NCBI RefSeq assembly: GCF_014646055.1
Contig: NZ_BMMS01000004.1
Location: 1-64,000, forward strand
Reading direction: 5' to 3'
DNA: 64,000 nt
Origin: Wenjunlia tyrosinilytica
GTDB taxonomy: Bacteria; Actinomycetota; Actinomycetes; Streptomycetales; Streptomycetaceae
In this document: piece by piece, positions 10,408-20,054 of the stretch
Position numbering within the stretch: the stretch's first letter is position 1
How the letters are laid out: each line of letters opens with the position of its first letter
Notes under the pieces: generated by a model
Databases searched by the model: none
What the model was told of the DNA's origin: nothing
What the model saw: the letters and a program-made list of their open reading frames with translations, nothing else
Made by a program: the position numbers and the translations under genes

Positions 10408-12441
10408 TCAGCGCACCTTCTCCGCCAGGGTCCGGGGGTCCGTCGTGGGGGCGTCGCAGGTGAAGTGGCGGCAGACATAGGCCGCGGGCCGCCCGTCCAC
10501 GAGGACGCGGTCGCGAAGCACCGGGGCGACGTCCCCGGGGTCCGCGGCGTCCCCGGCATCCGGCTCGCCCACGGCCACCACGGCGCCGGGAGCCGTCCCC
10601 AGCAAGGCCGTCCGGTGGAGTTCAGCCGTGGCCGGGTCCTCGGGCGGGCCGACGACCGCGACCTCCCGAGGACCGTCCAGATACGCCTCCGCCACCGCCA
10701 GCCCCCAGCCGATGAACCTCGGGGCACGGCCGCCGAGGGCGCGCACGATCCCGAGGGCCTTCCCCGCCTCCTCGCGGTGGCGGGCGGAGCCGGTCAGCGC
10801 CGCATGGCTGAGCAGGGCGCCGGCCGCGGCGGTCCACCCGGACGGGGCCGCGTTGTCCGTCGGGTCCTGGGGGCGGCGGATCAGCTTCTCGGCGTCGTCC
10901 GCGGTGTCGAAGAGCGTCCCGTCCTGCCCGGCGAAGCGGTCGAGGACGGTGTCCAGAACAAGCTCCGCGAAGGTCAGCCACGAGGTGTCGCCGGTGACGG
11001 AGTACAGCGCGATGAAGCCCTCGGCAACGTCCCCGTAGTCCTCCAGCACCCCGGCGCTGGGGCCCGCGTGGCCGTCCCGCGAGGTGCGGACCAGGCCGCT
11101 GCCCCGCAGATGGACCGAGACGAGCAGGTCGCCGGCGGCCGCGGCCGCCTCGACGAGGTCCGGGCGGTCGAGGAGGGCTCCGGCCTCGGCGAGCGCGGCG
11201 ACGGCCAGCCCGTTCCAGGCAGCGACCACCTTGTCGTCCCGGGCGGGGCGGGGGCGCCGCTCGCGGGCGGCCAGGAGAGCGGCACGGATCTCGGGGTCGG
11301 GCTCCGCCTCGGGCAGCCGCAGGACCGAGGCGCCGTGCTCGAACGTGCCCTCCTCGGTGACGCCGTGGAGGGCGGCGGCGACCGCCCCGCGCTCCGGTCC
11401 CAGCACCTCGGCGAGCTGCCCCGGCGTCCAGACGTAGTACGCGCCCTCCACCGGCTTCCCCTCGGCGTCCGGGCTGTCCGCGTCGAGCGCCGAGGCGAAC
11501 CCGCCCTGCGGGGTGCGCAGCTCGCGGACCATGAAGTCCGCGGTCTCCAGGGCGACCCGGCGGGCGAGCTCCGAGCCGGTCGCCCGCCACAGATGGGTGT
11601 AGACCCTCAGCAGCAGGGCGTTGTCGTACAGCATCTTCTCGAAGTGGGGTACCAAAGGCCCACCAACCCTCGGCGTGAGCACGTACCGGTGGAACCCGCC
11701 TCCCACCTGGTCGTACAGGCTCGAACGAGCCATCGCGCCGCACAGCCCTTCCGCCATCTCCAGCGCGGCCACGGAACCGGCCCGCGCATGGTGGCGCAAC
11801 AGGAACTCGATCACCATCGACGGCGGGAACTTGGTGTCTCCTTTGAACCAGCCACTCGCGGGGTCGATGTCCCGGGTCAGTCGGAGGAGGGCCAGAGCCT
11901 GGGTCTCCTCGGTGGGCGTCCCGGCGTCCCCGGTGCTCAGCTCCCGCTTGGCAAGGTCCCGAGTGAGCTTCCCCGCGACTTCCCCCACCTCGTCCCGTCG
12001 GCTCGTCCAGGCGTCGTGCACGCCTTCGAGCACCTGACGGAAGGACGGCATGCCATGGCGAGCCTCGGGCGGGAAGTAGGTGCCGAAGTAGAAGGGCTCC
12101 CCATCCGGCGTCATGAACACGGACATGGGCCAGCCGCCCTGCCCAGTGGCGGCTTGCACCGCCTCCATGTAGACCGCGTCCACGTCGGGCCGCTCCTCAC
12201 GGTCCACCTTGACGGACACGAAGTGCTCGTTCATGTACGCAGCGGTGTCGTCCTCCTCGAAGGACTCGTGCGCCATGACGTGACACCAGTGGCAGGCGCT
12301 GTAGCCGACGCTCAAGAACACGGGGACATCGCGCCGCCGGGCTTCTTCGAACGCACCGGCCTCCCATGGCCACCAGTCAACGGGGTTGTCCGCGTGCTGG
12401 AGGAGGTACGGGGACGTGGCCTGGGCAAGTCGGTTGGGCAT
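10408..12441 (-). CDS. DUF255/YyaL-type thioredoxin-domain protein
   Basis: This 677-aa protein has an N-terminal thioredoxin-like domain of the DUF255 (Spermatogenesis-associated protein 20/YyaL) family, with the active-site CHWC (Cys50, Cys53) and the EERPDVD and GQGGWPM motifs. It is followed by a long alpha/alpha-barrel region resembling N-acylglucosamine 2-epimerases. The start at ATG 12441 ([16 protein letters not shown]) matches the family start; the frame continues 58 codons upstream without conserved sequence. The biochemical role of the family is unsettled. A truncated relative lies immediately upstream. Confidence 0.9.
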
Positions 12442-12548
12442 ACCCCCATCCTTGCGCACCCGCCGACGCCCGCCCATGCGCCACGGGGACAGCGTACGAA
12501 CGAACGGGGCCGGGGCCGAGCCGCTGGAACTGTCTTGCTCGCCGTCGC

Positions 12549-12923
12549 TCAGCGGGTCGGGGTCGCGAAGTAGAACGGGGCGCCGTCCGGGGTCATGAAG
12601 ACCGTCATCGGCCAACCGCCTTGCCCGGTCGCCGCCTGCACTGCTTCCATGTAGACGGCGTCGACGTCCGGTCGCTCCTCGCGGTCCACCTTGACCGCGA
12701 CGAAGTGCTCATTGACGTAGGCGGCGATCCGCTCGTCCTCGAACGACTCGTGCGCCATCACATGGCACCGATGGCAGGCCGCGTACCCCACGCCCAGCAG
12801 GATCGGCACCTCCCGCCTCTTGGCCTCCGCGAATGCCTCCTCGCCCCAGGGCCACCAGTCGACCGGATCGCCGGCGTGCTGGAGCAGGTACGGGGACGTG
12901 GCGGCGATGAGCCGGTTGGCCAA
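12549..12923 (-). pseudogene. Truncated copy of the DUF255 thioredoxin domain
   Basis: This 124-codon frame repeats only the N-terminal thioredoxin domain of the neighbouring 677-aa protein. Homology runs from [16 protein letters not shown] to PDGAPFYF, then breaks off into four unrelated residues and a stop. Its active site reads CHRC instead of CHWC. The start is TTG at 12923 with AGGA upstream, where the full gene has ATG. Many substitutions separate the two copies, so the duplication is not recent. It may be a remnant left when the peptide locus was inserted, or a still-translated single-domain oxidoreductase. Confidence 0.7.
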
Positions 12924-12931
12924 GTCACCAT

Positions 12932-12966
12932 CCTGTCAGTCTCCTGCCGTGCAGGAGGCTGACAGG
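12932..12966. other. Long hairpin between the DUF255 fragment and the peptide gene
   Basis: A 16-bp stem (12932-12947 with 12951-12966, one T.G pair) closes a three-base loop. It lies about 100 nt upstream of the peptide ATG and just upstream of the truncated gene's start. It could be a leader attenuator of the peptide operon or a recombination scar. There is no gene upstream in the plus direction for it to terminate. Confidence 0.7.
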
Positions 12967-13064: not shown

Positions 13065-13223
13065 ATGTCCACAAAGCGCGCTTTCAAGCGCCTCGCGATC
13101 GTCATAGTCACGGCGCTTGCTCTGTCCACCGGGTTCTCGGCTGCAGCCCACGCCACTGGCTGGCAGAAGACCGACGACGTCTCGATCTCCCAAAGCGCTG
13201 CTCCCGACACCGGCTGGCAGTAA
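13065..13223 (+). CDS. Small secreted peptide precursor with duplicated TGWQ motif
   Basis: This 52-aa precursor has a textbook Sec signal peptide: a basic N-region (STKRAFKRL), a hydrophobic core (about residues 10-24) and an AHA cleavage site at residues 28-30. Cleavage would release a 22-residue peptide that begins with TGWQ (31-34) and ends with TGWQ (49-52), joined by a polar acidic linker. There is no Cys, so no disulfides. An AGGAG ribosome site precedes the ATG. It is followed after 34 bp by an RmlC-like gene. A secreted signal or a precursor modified by neighbouring enzymes are both possible; I know no named family for it. Confidence 0.8.
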   Translation: MSTKRAFKRLAIVIVTALALSTGFSAAAHATGWQKTDDVSISQSAAPDTGWQ

Positions 13224-13257: not shown

Positions 13258-13872
13258 ATGGGCCAGAGGAGCATTCTCGGGTTGCACTGGGAGGCCAACT
13301 ACTGCGCTGAGACGGCTGACGGCAGCTACACCCTCGTGACCAACCCCAGTCCTCTGGTGAGTGACGTCCACTTCTTCCAGCGGGACACCTACGACGACTA
13401 CGTCGTGCATGTCGGACACAGCACTCGCTTCACCTTCCTCGGCGCACCGGAACAACTGCTCGTCGGCGACTTCGTGGACTGTCGCCGCGGCTCACCCTCG
13501 CTCCGCCAATCGGTTCGGCTCGAATTCACCCCTGATCCGCGCAGGGCGCTGCACGTGGGCCAGGGAATCGCGATGCGATTCCAGGGTCTGACGAACATCA
13601 CCGTGCGCACCGAACCGACCTGGTTCGACTCCTCAAGACCGGACAGCCACTACGACGTCGGAAATGACCAGATCCGAGTCCCGACCGACACCCCAACGAG
13701 CAGCTTCCCTTCGCTCAGCGTCAACGACCTGCCGCTTCCCCCGCATGTGCTGCAGATCCTGATGCAACGCCAGCTCGAGATCCTCCGCAACGGGGGCTCC
13801 TACGACACGACATTCGACGTGGCGGTGGGCGGCGAAATGAGCGCGAGGGACCGCAGGGCAGCAGCCGTGTAG
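13258..13872 (+). CDS. Divergent RmlC-like cupin protein of unknown function
   Basis: This 204-aa protein has no certain family. Several stretches line up with dTDP-4-dehydrorhamnose 3,5-epimerase (RmlC): VHFFQ (37-41) with the RmlC HFQ motif, VDCRRGSPSLRQ (73-84) with VD-R-GSPT, ALHVGQGIAMRF (97-108) with the P-GFAHGF strand, and a GNDQIRVP near 135-142. In RmlC the second motif carries a conserved His, which is Met-Arg here, so an ordinary epimerase activity is doubtful. The C-terminal 60 residues are unrelated. A GGATGAGGA ribosome site precedes ATG 13258, 34 bp after the peptide gene, so both are probably one transcript. The fold call is my inference from pattern alone. Confidence 0.6.
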   Translation: MGQRSILGLHWEANYCAETADGSYTLVTNPSPLVSDVHFFQRDTYDDYVVHVGHSTRFTFLGAPEQLLVGDFVDCRRGSPSLRQSVRLEFTPDPRRALHVGQGIAMRFQGLTNITVRTEPTWFDSSRPDSHYDVGNDQIRVPTDTPTSSFPSLSVNDLPLPPHVLQILMQRQLEILRNGGSYDTTFDVAVGGEMSARDRRAAAV

Positions 13873-13966: not shown

Positions 13967-15034
13967 ATGCTGACCGAGCCGCACATCTTCCCCCGTGAGG
14001 CGCCGCCAGGTTACTCCTACCTGGACGACGAGCCTACGTTTGAACCGGACAAAGATCTGCGGCTCGAACAGCCCAAGGACGTCACCAGCCTGAGCGACCT
14101 CGGCTACGACGACGAGTTCCGCTCCGACTTCCCCTCCCCCGTGGCCGTCACCTCTCCCCTGCGTGTGCTCTCCGACACCGGGGTCGAGAAGGTGCGCGCG
14201 GTGATCAAACGTCTCTGGCCGTACGCGGTGCACAGCCCGGACCCGCGGGTGGCCCCCGTGCTGCGCGGCGCGGTCTACCGCTCCCGCTTCCTGCGCGACC
14301 TGTCGCTGTCGCCCGACGTGAGCGCCTTCTTCAGCGAGATCACCCGCACGGAACTGGTGCCGACCGCCTTCCCGTTCAACCTCGCGCACATCAACTACAA
14401 CCAGCCCGAGGCGGTGGAGTCCAACGACGGCTGGCACCGCGACGACAACGGCTTCGTGATGACGCTGGTGGTGCACGACCCCAACGACTGCGACGGGGGC
14501 CGCTTCCAGCACTTCCACGGCACACGGCACGAGGCCGACGCCCTGCTCTCCCGCAGCCGGCCGCTGCCCGAGGAACGGATCGTCTCGCCGGAGTTCCCCG
14601 GACCGGGCCACGCCGTCCTTCTGCAGGGTTCGGCGGTGGTCCACCGCGCCGAGCCGCTGCGCTCGCAGAGTGAGCGCTTCACCCTCGGCACGTGCTACGA
14701 CTCCCGCGACCTGCGGCATCCGGACCCCAACCGCACGTACTTCCTGCGCAGTTCCAGCGACGAACAGCAGGACCCCGAGGCCGAGGTGGAGGAGTTCTGC
14801 CGCTACGTCGACTACGCGCGCCACAAGGCCTGGCGGGCCCGCGGCCATCTCGACGACTTCCTGCGGGACGTGCCCTGGACCGACGACCGCGAACTGATTG
14901 TCCGTCAGCTCGCCGAGTCGGTGCGGGAGATCGTCGAGGCCGTTGACGTGCTGCGGCGGGGAGACGTGACCAAGCGGGAGGTTCAACGGCTGCGCGCGGC
15001 CGACGAAACCCGGAGGAAGCGGAAGGTGGACTGA
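13967..15034 (+). CDS. Fe(II)/2-oxoglutarate-dependent oxygenase-like protein
   Basis: This 355-aa product has a double-stranded beta-helix oxygenase pattern: GWHRDD supplies His157 and Asp159, VVHRAEP supplies the distal His226, and SERFTL gives Arg237 for 2-oxoglutarate binding 11 residues later. The Asp in the facial triad argues for hydroxylation rather than halogenation. The N-terminal 60 and C-terminal 80 residues are helical and charged, beyond the minimal domain. AAGGAG stands before ATG 13967. It ends the plus-strand peptide locus and is convergent with the LuxR/TrmB-type regulator. The substrate is unknown; the peptide or its cupin-processed product are candidates by neighbourhood only. 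Confidence 0.7.
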   Translation: MLTEPHIFPREAPPGYSYLDDEPTFEPDKDLRLEQPKDVTSLSDLGYDDEFRSDFPSPVAVTSPLRVLSDTGVEKVRAVIKRLWPYAVHSPDPRVAPVLRGAVYRSRFLRDLSLSPDVSAFFSEITRTELVPTAFPFNLAHINYNQPEAVESNDGWHRDDNGFVMTLVVHDPNDCDGGRFQHFHGTRHEADALLSRSRPLPEERIVSPEFPGPGHAVLLQGSAVVHRAEPLRSQSERFTLGTCYDSRDLRHPDPNRTYFLRSSSDEQQDPEAEVEEFCRYVDYARHKAWRARGHLDDFLRDVPWTDDRELIVRQLAESVREIVEAVDVLRRGDVTKREVQRLRAADETRRKRKVD

Positions 15035-15080: not shown

Positions 15081-15185
15081 CAGTCCGGTTCGACCCAGTC
15101 CGGTTCGTCCCAGCCCGATTTGATCCGGCCCGGTTTGATCCGCCCCGGTTCGATCCGGCGCGGTTCGGCTCAGTCCGGTTCGACC
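15081..15185. repeat. Seven imperfect 15-nt tandem repeats
   Basis: Seven contiguous 15-nt units built on CGGTTCGA(C/T)C run from 15081 to 15185, between the convergent oxygenase and regulator genes. The regulator stop at 15170 lies inside the array, so its last residues (WVEPD) are repeat-encoded. The repeats can form no long hairpin. Similar 15-nt arrays occur at 20101, 27931 and inside the gene ending at 47529. Confidence 0.8.
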
Positions 15186-16174
15186 CAGCCCCTCGCCATG
15201 GCCAGCGCACCGGCCTGGAAGCGGCTGCGCGCCCCGAGCCTTTCCATGAGGTCGGCGGCCACACGGCGCATGGTCCGCACCGACACCCCCAGTCTTCGGG
15301 CCACCAACTCGTCGGTCAGTCCCTGGAAGAGCAGCCGCAGCAGCTCCCGCTCCTGCGCTGTCGGGGTGTCCTCCCGGCCCTTCGCCCGATGCCTCCTGGC
15401 CTCACCGAGCGGCGAAGCTGTCGCCCACACCAGGTCGAACAGCGACGTGAGCGCGGCGATCAGCCCGGGGCCCTGGATAAGGACCGCCCCCGCGCTGCTG
15501 TCCTCCGGGTCGATGGGCACGATCCCCAGCTCCCGGTCGAAGACGATCAGCCGCATGGGGAGTGCGGGCACGGTACGGCACTCGCCGCCAAGCTCGGTGA
15601 GCCATCTGGCGTAGGCGACGGTACGGGCATCGTTGCGGATGCTGTCGAGGTAGACATTGCGCATCCGCACCCCGCGCTCCAGCAGCTGCCGGTCGACCGG
15701 GGATCTGGCGTCCAGGGTGTCGGGGTACTGGGCTCCGTCCGGGGCGAAGTGGAGGACCTCCGTGTGGACTTTGGGAGTGAGTTCCTCGATGCGCTCGCGG
15801 ACGGCGGCGACTCCGACGAGCTGCTCGACCTCGGCGTACTGCCAGCCCGGCCGCAGCTTGGTGTACTCGGCCATGAGGGCAGCGGCCGCGGCACGGGCCT
15901 CCTCTATGCGGTTCTGCTGCTGTACCAGCTCGGCCTGCTGACGCGACAACACGGCCTCGAGGCCGGCCTCCGGACTCACCGGACGCCACTGGTCAGGGGT
16001 TTTGAGCGACGGACGCAGCAGCGCGGCACGCGCCAGCTCGTCGAACGCCGACCTCACCTCATCGTGTTCGATCGCCAGACGTTTCGCCAGGTCACCTACC
16101 CCAAGACTGGGATCGGACAGCATCACCCGGTAGACCGCTTCCGCCCGTTCACTTATCCCGAACACGTGCAGCAC
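15170..16174 (-). CDS. TrmB/LuxR-type transcriptional regulator
   Basis: This 334-aa regulator has an N-terminal TrmB-like winged helix (about residues 5-65), a coiled stretch rich in Gln and Ala (75-105), a phospholipase-D-like effector region (about 110-250, with HTEVLHFAPDG), and a C-terminal LuxR-type helix-turn-helix (about 275-325, GLTDELVARRLGVSVRTMRR). There is no receiver or kinase domain, so it probably binds a ligand directly. The GTG at 16174 has GGAGG seven bases upstream. It faces the peptide/cupin/oxygenase genes and is the obvious candidate regulator for them. Confidence 0.85.
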   Translation of the reverse strand: MLHVFGISERAEAVYRVMLSDPSLGVGDLAKRLAIEHDEVRSAFDELARAALLRPSLKTPDQWRPVSPEAGLEAVLSRQQAELVQQQNRIEEARAAAAALMAEYTKLRPGWQYAEVEQLVGVAAVRERIEELTPKVHTEVLHFAPDGAQYPDTLDARSPVDRQLLERGVRMRNVYLDSIRNDARTVAYARWLTELGGECRTVPALPMRLIVFDRELGIVPIDPEDSSAGAVLIQGPGLIAALTSLFDLVWATASPLGEARRHRAKGREDTPTAQERELLRLLFQGLTDELVARRLGVSVRTMRRVAADLMERLGARSRFQAGALAMARGWVEPD

Positions 16175-16302
16175 TCTGGCCTCCCCAACCTCATGCCGGA
16201 CGACTCCGAGGTCTCCGCATCGTAGGCTCCCCGCTCGTCCGTTGCCCAGCCCGCATTCAGTCCCTAAGACTCCGCCATCTCACATCACGGGGGATGACCG
16301 CA

Positions 16303-16596
16303 ATGTACGCCTTTACAGCCCGCTTCCACTCCTTTGACGGTACGGGAGCACCGCCCGACATCGCACGCCATGTGCAATCGACGGCCGATCCCGATGACGG
16401 GCTCGAGCATATTTACACCGAATCCACCCCCTTCGGTGTCTACGCGGTCCTGTTCATGAACGCCCCGGGCGCCCAGGCGGCGGAGAGCGCGGCGGTCGGA
16501 GTGTGCCGGGAGGCGCTGAGGCGCACGGAGTTGAGGGGCTGGAACTTCACCTGGCAGGGACCGGAACGGGAACTCAACGCGATGGCGTCCTGGTAG
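16303..16596 (+). CDS. Small conserved hypothetical protein
   Basis: This is a 97-aa soluble protein with an alpha/beta ferredoxin-like layout (MYAFTARFHSFDG, then two helices and YAVLFMNAPG). I prefer ATG 16303 because a GGGGGA ribosome site lies 9 bases before it; another in-frame ATG at 16294 abuts that site. It stands 101 bp upstream of the NB-ARC/TPR gene on the same strand and is probably its operon partner. No function is recognised. Confidence 0.7.
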   Translation: MYAFTARFHSFDGTGAPPDIARHVQSTADPDDGLEHIYTESTPFGVYAVLFMNAPGAQAAESAAVGVCREALRRTELRGWNFTWQGPERELNAMASW

Positions 16597-16697: not shown

Positions 16698-19600
16698 ATG
16701 TCCGGCCGGATGGTGCGAGTGGACGCGAAGAAGGGGGCGCGCGCGGGCGCGCCGCAGTTGCGGGACGTGGACCGGGTCGAATTCGAACAAGTTGTGCGGC
16801 GGGTGGCCGGGGACGGGGCGCGCGGGGACCGCGTCCTGGAGGCCGGGGAACGCATCGGATCAGGGGCCGCCGCGGAGTACGCCGAGTATCTGCGGGCAGT
16901 GCGCGAGCGCCGGGGGCGGGGCGGGCCTCCGGTGCGCGGGGCGGGGTTGTGCGCGGGCTTGTTCGGGGCGGCGGGTTTCGGTCTGGCGCGGGTGACGGTT
17001 GGGGGCGGCGGCGCGGCCGCGGCCATCGGACTGTTCGTGGTGGTGGCCGCGTTGGCCACCTCGTTCGTCACGTTTCCGGCCAAGGCGCTGGCACGAGCGG
17101 CGCTCGAGCGGGAGGAGCGGCGCAGGAGGCAGTGGCTGGCGGCGCTGGAGCGGGAGGCACGGGCGGTCACGCAGGAGTACCACGAGTCCGCGGAGCACGC
17201 GCCCGGCGGTGCCCAGGTGGGCGGGGGCGCCGCCGCGCACGAGAACGATGCCGGGGGCGCCGGCGCGGGCGATACCGGAGCCGGTTCCGCCGTCGGCGCC
17301 GTTTCCGGCGCGGGAGCCGTAAACGATCCCGCGAGCCCCAACGCGGAGGCGCCCGTGGCGATCGGCGGCGGCCCCGTTGGCGACCGGACCCCCGTCACGG
17401 CGGATCCCCCGACGCCGACCTCCGCTCATGTGGAGAGCGCACTGGTACGAGCCTCGGCCCGACTTCCGCTCCAGGACGGCCCGTTCCTGGGCCGCGACCA
17501 AGCACTTTCGGCCATCGCGCGATGGGCCGACGGGCCCCGCCCCGACGGGCGCGGCGGCCCCTGCGTCGTCGTCCTGCACGGCCCTCCCGGTGCCGGGCGG
17601 ACCGCACTGGCCGTGCGGGCGGCGGAGATGCTGCGCGAGCGGTTCCGCGTCTCGTGCCTGGTCAACCTGCGGGGCAGGCCGTCGGATTCGGCGACATCGC
17701 CGCCCGAGACCGCCCTGTCCACCCGCGACGCGCTCCTGCACCTGCTCAACCGGCTCGGCGCGCCCAAGCAGGACCTGCTCTTCCGCGACCCCGCCTCCCG
17801 CGACACCCATCTGCGGCGGCTGCGCCAGCAGTACCAGGAGCACGTGGCGGCCCTGAGCACCGTCCTCATCCTGGACGACGCGGCCGACGCCAAGCAGGTG
17901 AGACCGCTGATCCCCGAGAACTCCGCGAGCCTGGTGCTGGTGACCAGCCGTGAGCCACTGGAGCTCACGGGCCTCGGCAACGGCATCGAGACGCACAGCG
18001 TCGCGGTCGGGCCCCTCGGCGCTCCGGACGCCGACAGCCTGTTCGACGCGATCGCCGGGGCCGGACCGCACTCCGCCGGTGACGAAGCGCTGCTGCGGGC
18101 CGCCCAGGGACTGCCGCTGGCGGTGTGCATGGCGGGCGCGGCCGTCGCCCGAGGCTCGATCGGCTCTCGACTGCACGGCGAGGCGGTCCCCGAGACGGTG
18201 ATGGGCGTCAGCTACCTCGCGCTGGACCCCGCCGCCGCCCGCCTGTTCCGCAGGCTCGTCCTCGTCGGCCGGGCGAGCCTCGGCCCCGCCGCGGCGGCCG
18301 CGCTGCTGGGTGAGGACGAGAGCACCGCCGGGGCACGGCTGGCCGTGCTCGACCGGGCCCACATGGTCGAGCAGGTGCACAGCGGCCGCTACCGGCTGCA
18401 CGACATGCTGCGCGGCTTCGCCCGGCAGTGCCTGGAGGAGGAGGACGACGCCAGGGAGCGGGCCGCCGCCCAGGAACGGCTGATCAAGGACTACGCGGAG
18501 CTCGCCGAGTCGGTGATCCACCGGGTGGAGGGCGCCTCGTCTTCCCGCTCGGTGCGCACGGTGCTGCGCGGAGCGGCGTCGCCGCACGGGTTCGAGACGC
18601 TGGACGCGGCACTTCGCTGGCTCGACGAGGAGAGCAGCTTCATCACCGCGACGCTGCGGCACACCGACGACGTCGACCCGCAGGCGGTGCAGCGGCTCGT
18701 CGAGGCGCTGTGCGACTACTGCCTGCTGCGCGGTGACCTGTACCGGCTGGGTGAGATCGCTGAGCTGGTGCAGACCCTCGGCAGGGATTCGCTGATCCGC
18801 TCGGTGAAGCTGCGCACGGGCATCGCGGCCCGCCAGCTGGGCCAGTTGGACCGGGCGCGCACGACGCTGAGCTCGCTGGTCAGCATGTACCGCGAGGGGC
18901 ACAACGAGGCCGGGGCCGCGCGGGCGCTGTGCAGCCTCGGCATCACGCTGCACCACCGCGGCAATCTGCCGGAGGCGGCGGCGAAGCTGCGCGAGGCGCT
19001 GGATCTGCAGCGGCCGGACGAACAGCGCGGCGACCGCGCCTGGACGTTGCACGCGCTCGGAGCGGTGCTGCGGGACCAGGGCGAGCTGGACGAGGCATGG
19101 GAGTTGCTGCACACCGCGCGGGCGCTGCACGAGGAGACGGAGAGCCTGCACGGGCAGGCATGGACGTGCCTTCAGCTCGGCCAGGTCCATCTGCGGCTCG
19201 GCGAGGTCGACGAGGCCGAGGAGCAACTGTGGCTGAGCCAGGAGCTGTACCGGAAGACCAAGGACGGGCGCGGTGAGGCCTGGGCGATGACCCAGCTCGG
19301 CCGCACCCGGCTCCTGCGCGGGGAGGCGGATGCGGCGGTGCGGGAGCTGAACGAGGCCCGTGGCCGGCACCGCCGCCACGAGGACGCGCGCGGCGAGGCT
19401 TGGACGCTGTACTACCTCGGGCAGGCGCTGGAGGACGCGGGGCGCCTGGACCGGGCGGAGGACGCGCTCAGCCGCGCCAGGCACATGTTCAGCACCATGG
19501 GCGACCGCTACGGCCACGCGTGCGCGCGGCACCACTTCGGGCGGGTGGCCAGGGACCGGCTCGCGGGGCGGTCGGGCTCACTGAAGAACAGCGGATTCGC

Positions 19601-20054
19601 GAGGCAGCTGCTGCACGAGGCGCGGCAGGACTTCCGGACGGTGGGGCTGCCTCACGGGGAGGCATGGTCGTGCGTGGAGCTCGCGGTGATCGACGCGGGC
19701 TGCGGGCGGATCGCGAGGGCGGTGGATCTGCTGGAGGACGCGCGGGAGCTGTTCGGGTCCCTGGGCGACCGCAGCGGCGGCTCCTGGGCGACCTTCCTGT
19801 ACTGCACCCTGCTCCCGCTGTCCTCGGACGACGGCGGCAGGGTGGCCCGGGAGACCCTGGACCGCCTCCTGAACGACACGGAGGCGGGCGTCCATCCTCT
19901 GGCGAGGGAGAACGCCCTGCGCTGGCTCGAATCCCCCTGGATCGACACCCAACCGGACGGCCCCTGGCCAGTCTGGCGCCAGGGCCTGGCCCCCACCCGC
20001 ACCGCAAGGGACGTCCTGGGTGTAACCGTCCGCAGAACCGACTCAGCGGCGTGA
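16698..20054 (+). CDS. NB-ARC/TPR protein with N-terminal membrane anchor
   Basis: This 1118-aa STAND-type protein begins with a soluble segment, two adjacent hydrophobic helices (about residues 80-98 and 104-128) and an Ala/Gly-rich linker to about 235. The NTPase has a P-loop near residue 293 reading GPPGAGRT, where the usual Lys is Arg, a Walker B LILDDA near 389 and a VTSRE sensor. A winged-helix-like region (LHDMLRGFARQ) follows, then roughly ten tetratricopeptide repeats (about 675-1080). The start at ATG 16698 is set by GGAGGGGG. Such proteins act as regulated molecular switches; the loss of the Lys questions nucleotide hydrolysis here. The ligand is unknown. Confidence 0.85.
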   Translation: MSGRMVRVDAKKGARAGAPQLRDVDRVEFEQVVRRVAGDGARGDRVLEAGERIGSGAAAEYAEYLRAVRERRGRGGPPVRGAGLCAGLFGAAGFGLARVTVGGGGAAAAIGLFVVVAALATSFVTFPAKALARAALEREERRRRQWLAALEREARAVTQEYHESAEHAPGGAQVGGGAAAHENDAGGAGAGDTGAGSAVGAVSGAGAVNDPASPNAEAPVAIGGGPVGDRTPVTADPPTPTSAHVESALVRASARLPLQDGPFLGRDQALSAIARWADGPRPDGRGGPCVVVLHGPPGAGRTALAVRAAEMLRERFRVSCLVNLRGRPSDSATSPPETALSTRDALLHLLNRLGAPKQDLLFRDPASRDTHLRRLRQQYQEHVAALSTVLILDDAADAKQVRPLIPENSASLVLVTSREPLELTGLGNGIETHSVAVGPLGAPDADSLFDAIAGAGPHSAGDEALLRAAQGLPLAVCMAGAAVARGSIGSRLHGEAVPETVMGVSYLALDPAAARLFRRLVLVGRASLGPAAAAALLGEDESTAGARLAVLDRAHMVEQVHSGRYRLHDMLRGFARQCLEEEDDARERAAAQERLIKDYAELAESVIHRVEGASSSRSVRTVLRGAASPHGFETLDAALRWLDEESSFITATLRHTDDVDPQAVQRLVEALCDYCLLRGDLYRLGEIAELVQTLGRDSLIRSVKLRTGIAARQLGQLDRARTTLSSLVSMYREGHNEAGAARALCSLGITLHHRGNLPEAAAKLREALDLQRPDEQRGDRAWTLHALGAVLRDQGELDEAWELLHTARALHEETESLHGQAWTCLQLGQVHLRLGEVDEAEEQLWLSQELYRKTKDGRGEAWAMTQLGRTRLLRGEADAAVRELNEARGRHRRHEDARGEAWTLYYLGQALEDAGRLDRAEDALSRARHMFSTMGDRYGHACARHHFGRVARDRLAGRSGSLKNSGFARQLLHEARQDFRTVGLPHGEAWSCVELAVIDAGCGRIARAVDLLEDARELFGSLGDRSGGSWATFLYCTLLPLSSDDGGRVARETLDRLLNDTEAGVHPLARENALRWLESPWIDTQPDGPWPVWRQGLAPTRTARDVLGVTVRRTDSAA

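Follow-up and report, generated by a model that had tools for sequence, protein, structure and literature searches.

More than 100 exported peptides with tryptophan tails beside TrmB/LuxR-type regulators suggest an undescribed peptide language for gene control in Streptomyces and its relatives

The window, the whole 64-kb stretch of DNA analyzed here, lies in contig C4 of a host genome of 8.49 Mb in 172 contigs and contains a small gene (13065 to 13223, + strand) that raises the question of what a peptide bracketed by two copies of TGWQ could be for. Its 52-aa product reads MSTKRAFKRLAIVIVTALALSTGFSAAAHA^TGWQKTDDVSISQSAAPDTGWQ, in which the caret marks cleavage after an AHA site, and by eye it has the basic n-region, hydrophobic core, and AHA site of a signal peptide of 30 aa (13065 to 13154, +). 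GAGGAG immediately 5' of the ATG at 13065 is a good ribosome-binding site; an alternative listed reading frame of 82 aa starts at an in-frame ATG farther upstream. The 52-aa frame has a GC3 of 0.79 compared to GC1 and GC2 values of 0.56 and 0.58, the pattern expected of coding DNA. An earlier note on this DNA had proposed a small exported peptide, which the predicted signal peptide supports, with TGWQ at the AHA site (13155 to 13166, +) and again at the C terminus (13209 to 13220, +). Both copies are real, and the second would end the probable mature signal (...PDTGWQ), consistent with the family logo described below. The codon sets, ACTGGCTGGCAG and ACCGGCTGGCAG, are indeed similar without being identical (11 of 12 bases alike), and the mature part contains neither Cys nor a dibasic site, as had been stated. 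When the 22-mer was shuffled, a repeated 4-mer of any kind arose in 0.24% of cases, and none of 200,000 shuffles placed TGWQ at each end.

No model in Pfam or NCBIfam matched the peptide, Rfam and tRNA scans of the 64-kb window returned no matches, and the peptide used as a query for homologues recovered no credible match. Only about five residues are conserved, which makes the family invisible to ordinary searches. The locus could be reached in a sister species, another member of the genus (genome G001, locus L006), by way of the neighboring oxygenase gene. The peptide at the syntenic position there, MSTKLVKRVAVTFAAAIAVGAGLSTAAQAATTPTSPNGNGWDSVVAANGWDSMNGNGWDSLSTNGNGWD, keeps a signal peptide, has an altered linker, and carries NGWD four times, indicating that repetition is a feature of the locus itself, with letters that can be altered across every copy at once. 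Both loci hold all three genes of a conserved module, encoding the peptide with its W-containing tail, a TrmB/LuxR-type regulator, and a protein of about 100 aa.

Relatives of the peptide were sought at 191 loci (including one on a plasmid) around homologues of the window regulator (15170 to 16174, −), with candidates defined by a simple rule as short open reading frames preceded by a ribosome-binding site and opening with a signal-peptide-like segment. This survey yielded 122 distinct peptides of predicted exported type, each having a short xxxW[Q/G/D/E] motif at its C terminus. Their hosts, where named, are mainly Streptomyces, Kitasatospora, and other Streptomycetaceae, Streptosporangium and Actinoplanes contributing one case each, and the two peptides whose public annotation was checked (WP_327348933.1 and WP_257858317.1) are listed as "hypothetical protein." In the usual gene order, the regulator gene diverges from the gene for the ~100-aa protein, which is followed by the peptide gene; the usual peptide site is on the opposite strand, 150 to 1,100 bp upstream of the regulator. 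Trp was found within the last three residues of 99 of 118 signal-peptide-like reading frames at this site compared to 13 of 121 at other positions within those loci (Fisher P = 2e-32), and 12 of those 13 have the same kind of terminal motif. Across 102 kb of unrelated loci, one of nine signal-peptide-like reading frames had Trp near its end. Conservation of the W itself follows from the way the set was constructed and is not counted as evidence; the comparison of the usual site with the remainder of the loci and the unrelated loci serve as unbiased controls. About one-third of the regulator loci yielded no such peptide under the filters used. The pairing of an exported W-tail peptide with a TrmB/LuxR regulator was not found described in the literature covered, chiefly openly accessible journal papers.

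The tail follows the logo D/G-[D/T/N]-[M/T/V/I/L]-[G/I/T]-W-[G/Q/D/E], with W penultimate in 101 of the 122 peptides and one residue further from the end in 21. Examples include GDMGWQ, SMGWQSMGWQ, DNMIWG, ANTIWD (three copies), TTAWE (three copies), GDVTWG, DTWGWG, PGIGWD (three copies), DSINWD (two copies), and KDTTGWQ. The window tail TTGWQ occurs exactly at five loci, once in L154, L158, and L227 and twice in L167 and L190. At three loci (L108, L130, and L111) the motif is followed by a longer tail, suggesting that proteolytic release, not a fixed C terminus, is needed. A paralogous regulator locus in the host genome itself (contig C18, L067, 4171 to 4238, +) has a short reading frame, MIRPAAAGFPTCSTETFTMGWQ, upstream of an acyl carrier protein gene and a thioesterase-like gene; it keeps an MGWQ tail without a signal peptide and may be a decayed or unusually exported signal.

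Exact repetition of the terminal 4-mer is widespread, with two to four copies in 33 of the 122 peptides (0.05 expected), and all copies switch together between clades (IGWD, TTAWE, NTIWD, and DVTWG, three copies each; NGWD, four copies). Concerted change together with repetition above chance is in keeping with a single signal unit present in multiple copies. The copy number ranges from one to four across the family, and the first copy need not open the mature peptide. The peptides of L044, L173, and L206 have internal copies in which W is replaced by R (GRQ for GWQ, as a change of TGG to CGG would give), and these resemble decaying copies beside intact ones. The earlier note had left it open whether the repeat was selected or an old duplication; the family comparison favors selection over accident. 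It had further imagined the two Trp-bearing ends acting together in dimerization, cross-linking, or receptor binding. That idea of paired Trp residues fails by the criterion that the note itself had set, since 89 of the 122 peptides carry a single copy, at the C terminus, and linker sequences lack conservation. Dimerization and cross-linking are thus unsupported; a receptor role stays in play as a possibility. The single-copy relatives do not make the duplication incidental, to judge from the peptide sequences, in which repeats are far above chance and copies change together.

The regulator was modeled by AlphaFold2 (pLDDT 88.9) as a winged helix-turn-helix (HTH), a long helix (coil), a phospholipase D (PLD)-like alpha/beta domain resembling TrmB_C, and a C-terminal HTH. 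Pfam matched the GerE/LuxR HTH (PF00196), and the TrmB-type HTH (PF01978) scored 19.9 bits, under the cutoff of 25.6; profile searches recovered archaeal TrmBL2 and a NarL-type HTH. Foldseek matches were to TrmB/TrmBL2 and PLD folds, among them 5bpd (E = 3e-12), TrmB (3qph; E = 1e-6), and a sugar-binding domain (2f5t; E = 2e-4). The combination of TrmB HTH and PLD-like C-terminal domain is thus present by the TrmBL2 profile and by fold, with Pfam below its cutoff. Across the phylum the regulator is concentrated in the host's family, which supplied 12 of the 19 genomes with a match at E = 1e-40 among the 396 compared. It also occurs in 62 plasmid records; phage records contained no homologue. 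In the window, the peptide and regulator genes belong to the same locus, about 1.9 to 2 kb apart in convergent orientation, which places the peptide on a noncanonical flank.

The peptide tails co-vary with this regulator. For regulators that are 50 to 80% identical, the identity of the five-residue tail is 0.41 (of which W supplies 0.2 by construction), compared to 0.12 for the preceding 8-aa linker. When mapped onto the regulator tree, the residue preceding W requires 22 changes and the one following it 20, compared to 60 and 62 with shuffled labels; linker positions require 63 to 67, compared to 82 to 84. Such tracking is partly expected of linked genes. Paralogues within one genome differ in tail (TTAWE, DTWGWG, and DVTWG in G104; MIWG and DIIWD in G076), indicating that the tail goes with the regulator and not with the organism. 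Regulator pairs of similar divergence were compared for columns that differ when the tail does; of the 25 highest ranked, 21 fall in the PLD-like domain, mostly at residues 129 to 160, 188 to 189, 210, and 219 to 223, whereas control labels drawn from random regulator columns placed an average of 13 to 14 of 25 there (maximum of 19 in 172 draws). The PLD-like domain is therefore the best candidate for the peptide site, a role that the sequence comparison supports and does not prove, the regulator pairs being nonindependent.

A shared DNA site also connects the genes. The motif TGG[AC]CGGAA, often present as an inverted pair (TGGACGGAAC...TTCCGTCCA), occurs at 2.14 per kb before peptide genes and 1.17 per kb before regulator genes, compared to 0.024 per kb elsewhere in these loci, enrichments of about 90-fold and 50-fold. 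Its presence before both types of gene suggests that one factor acts on both, most simply, it may be inferred, the regulator itself. The motif was looked for before the window peptide gene (as the TGGACGGAA site) and not found. A 33-bp palindrome, CTGTCAGTCTCCTGC-CGT-GCAGGAGGCTGACAG (12933 to 12965, unstranded), is a candidate operator located 100 to 132 bp upstream of the peptide start codon. At this locus it precedes the peptide gene alone. A genome search that tolerated three mismatches returned no second copy, and 32 of its 33 bases are kept in the sister species, where the flanks have diverged.

The reading preferred here, and considered quite likely, is that the peptide is a multicopy propheromone whose C-terminal pieces are reimported and bind the regulator. 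The propeptide would be exported by Sec and cut after AHA, and extracellular trimming would then release C-terminal motif peptides of about 5 to 8 residues (here ...DTGWQ), and a further TGWQ unit at the mature N terminus would increase the yield from each precursor. Reentry of the motif peptide would be through an oligopeptide (Opp/BldK-type) ABC transporter; PF00496, the oligopeptide-binding protein family, has 15 matches in the host genome, a presence that proves little because SBP_bac_5 proteins are common everywhere. Inside the cell, the peptide would bind the PLD-like middle domain of its cognate regulator, which would govern expression of the peptide gene, of the partner gene divergent from its own, and of output genes close by.

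It is also conceivable, although unlikely, that sensing of the peptide takes place extracellularly or at the envelope, by a surface receptor or as a ligand holding an envelope partner, and that the regulator answers indirectly to some other molecule. The export signal of the peptide would suit this arrangement, as would the predicted fold of the regulator, which is related to that of TrmB, a protein whose C-terminal domain binds sugars. However, no membrane or sensor-kinase gene was a constant neighbor in the loci examined, and most of the co-variation maps to the ligand-type domain of the regulator itself.

The neighboring genes bear on a different possibility. The third module gene (16294 to 16596, +), divergent from the regulator gene, encodes a 100-aa protein with homologues at 138 of the 191 regulator loci. 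It has no Pfam-A match and, by eye, no export signal; its AlphaFold2 model (pLDDT 91) has a beta-alpha-beta-beta-alpha-beta order, for which Foldseek returned weak matches alone, none at E ≤ 0.001. As a guess, it may modulate the regulator. Two further genes lie between the peptide and regulator genes, and neither is a constant partner. The first (13258 to 13872, +), outside the core module, encodes a 204-aa protein with a weak RmlC-like (cupin) match; in the sister species only its C-terminal part is recognizable (L006, about 1200 to 1420), so that the gene is eroded there, and it is a possible output gene of the locus. The second (13967 to 15034, +) encodes a HalD-like Fe(II)/2-oxoglutarate (2OG) oxygenase (E = 1e-11) that is probably an output gene; its HxD motif (WHRDD) presumably makes it a hydroxylase more likely than a halogenase. 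Directly downstream of the 100-aa gene is a gene for an AfsR-like NB-ARC/TPR protein (about 16699 to 20054, +). On the other side of the peptide gene, positions 12549 to 12923 (−) encode a 124-aa N-terminal fragment of a DUF255/thioredoxin-like protein, a truncated duplicate of the full-length copy at 10408 to 12465 (−).

The oxygenase adjoins the peptide gene and is kept in the sister species, and repeated core units are common in the precursors of ribosomally synthesized and posttranslationally modified peptides (RiPPs). The peptide might accordingly be a RiPP or antimicrobial precursor whose Trp motifs are core units modified by the nearby enzyme, with the regulator merely controlling a small biosynthetic locus. 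This explanation is improbable. The oxygenase was found in only 3 of the 298 genomes of the host's family (67% identity in the sister species and 27% in one other), whereas many regulator loci lack it and still encode a peptide bearing this motif. Annotation of the neighbors, drawn from Pfam, NCBIfam, and plasmid annotations, revealed no constant modification enzyme, and a constant partner besides the regulator is the 100-aa protein, itself lacking a Pfam-A match. Moreover, the peptide belongs to no peptide family in Pfam or NCBIfam, and the tails co-vary with a domain of the regulator. It is very improbable that the repeat reflects an old duplication of no consequence in a small secreted protein that is nonfunctional or structural, as the mere two copies in the window peptide, their almost identical codons, and the single copy of many relatives might suggest. 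This view is contradicted by the exact repeats and concerted changes among relatives and by family-wide conservation of the terminal motif, which exceeds that of every other part of the mature region.

Returning to the propheromone, it is probable that the window holds one instance of a widespread and undescribed peptide-pheromone system in which TrmB-PLD-LuxR receptors detect tandem W-motif signals. Each genome would have several orthogonal "dialects," some of them plasmid borne, and these would control local genes that include biosynthetic ones. If so, Streptomyces would possess an encoded peptide code with many parallel dialects, for which cheap synthetic keys (5- to 8-mers predicted from sequence) could be made and tried for switching on silent gene clusters, and the regulators would represent a new receptor class for peptide sensing.

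Among known systems, archaeal TrmB and TrmBL2 share with the regulator an N-terminal winged HTH and a PLD-like C-terminal domain; the regulator differs by its added C-terminal NarL/GerE-type HTH, its linked exported peptide, and a proposed ligand that is a peptide and not a sugar. LuxR solos and acyl-homoserine lactone (AHL) receptors have the GerE HTH (PF00196) in common with it, but a Pfam scan at E values up to 1 detected no AHL-binding domain in the regulator. Gamma-butyrolactone signaling (A-factor/ArpA) occurs in the same bacteria and likewise joins an intracellular receptor, here proposed, to a self-made signal; the signal there is a small molecule and the receptor is of the TetR-type class, to which ArpA belongs, whereas a ribosomal peptide and a TrmB/LuxR-type regulator are found here. 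In Streptomyces, that receptor is intracellular and the signal that it detects is diffusible and made by the organism itself (PMC4748050). Reviews describe actinobacterial signaling as typically using small molecules made by enzymes and genetically encoded oligopeptides as the mode of Firmicutes (PMC10075063).

In gene arrangement and in its proposed mode of action, though with an unrelated receptor, the module resembles the RRNPP systems (Rap-Phr, PlcR-PapR, NprR-NprX, Rgg-SHP, AloR-AloP, and arbitrium), in which a small exported propeptide gene lies beside the gene for an intracellular regulator. A propeptide gene with an export signal is adjacent to the regulator gene at most of the loci surveyed and 1.9 kb from it in the window. 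In both cases the signal is expected at the extreme C terminus, where it comprises 5 to 6 aa in Phr and AloP, and there are many paralogous pairs per genome, more than 25 RRNPP pairs in some Paenibacillaceae (PMC7425212). RRNPP receptors, however, carry TPR peptide-binding domains and belong to Firmicutes systems (PMC10075063, PMC7425212). The regulator described here consists of a TrmB HTH, a PLD-like domain, and a LuxR HTH, with no TPR domain detected by Pfam or Foldseek, and it is found in Actinomycetes, where a conserved third gene accompanies it and the signal is present in tandem copies. Because the defining TPR receptor is absent, the module is not a member of the RRNPP family.
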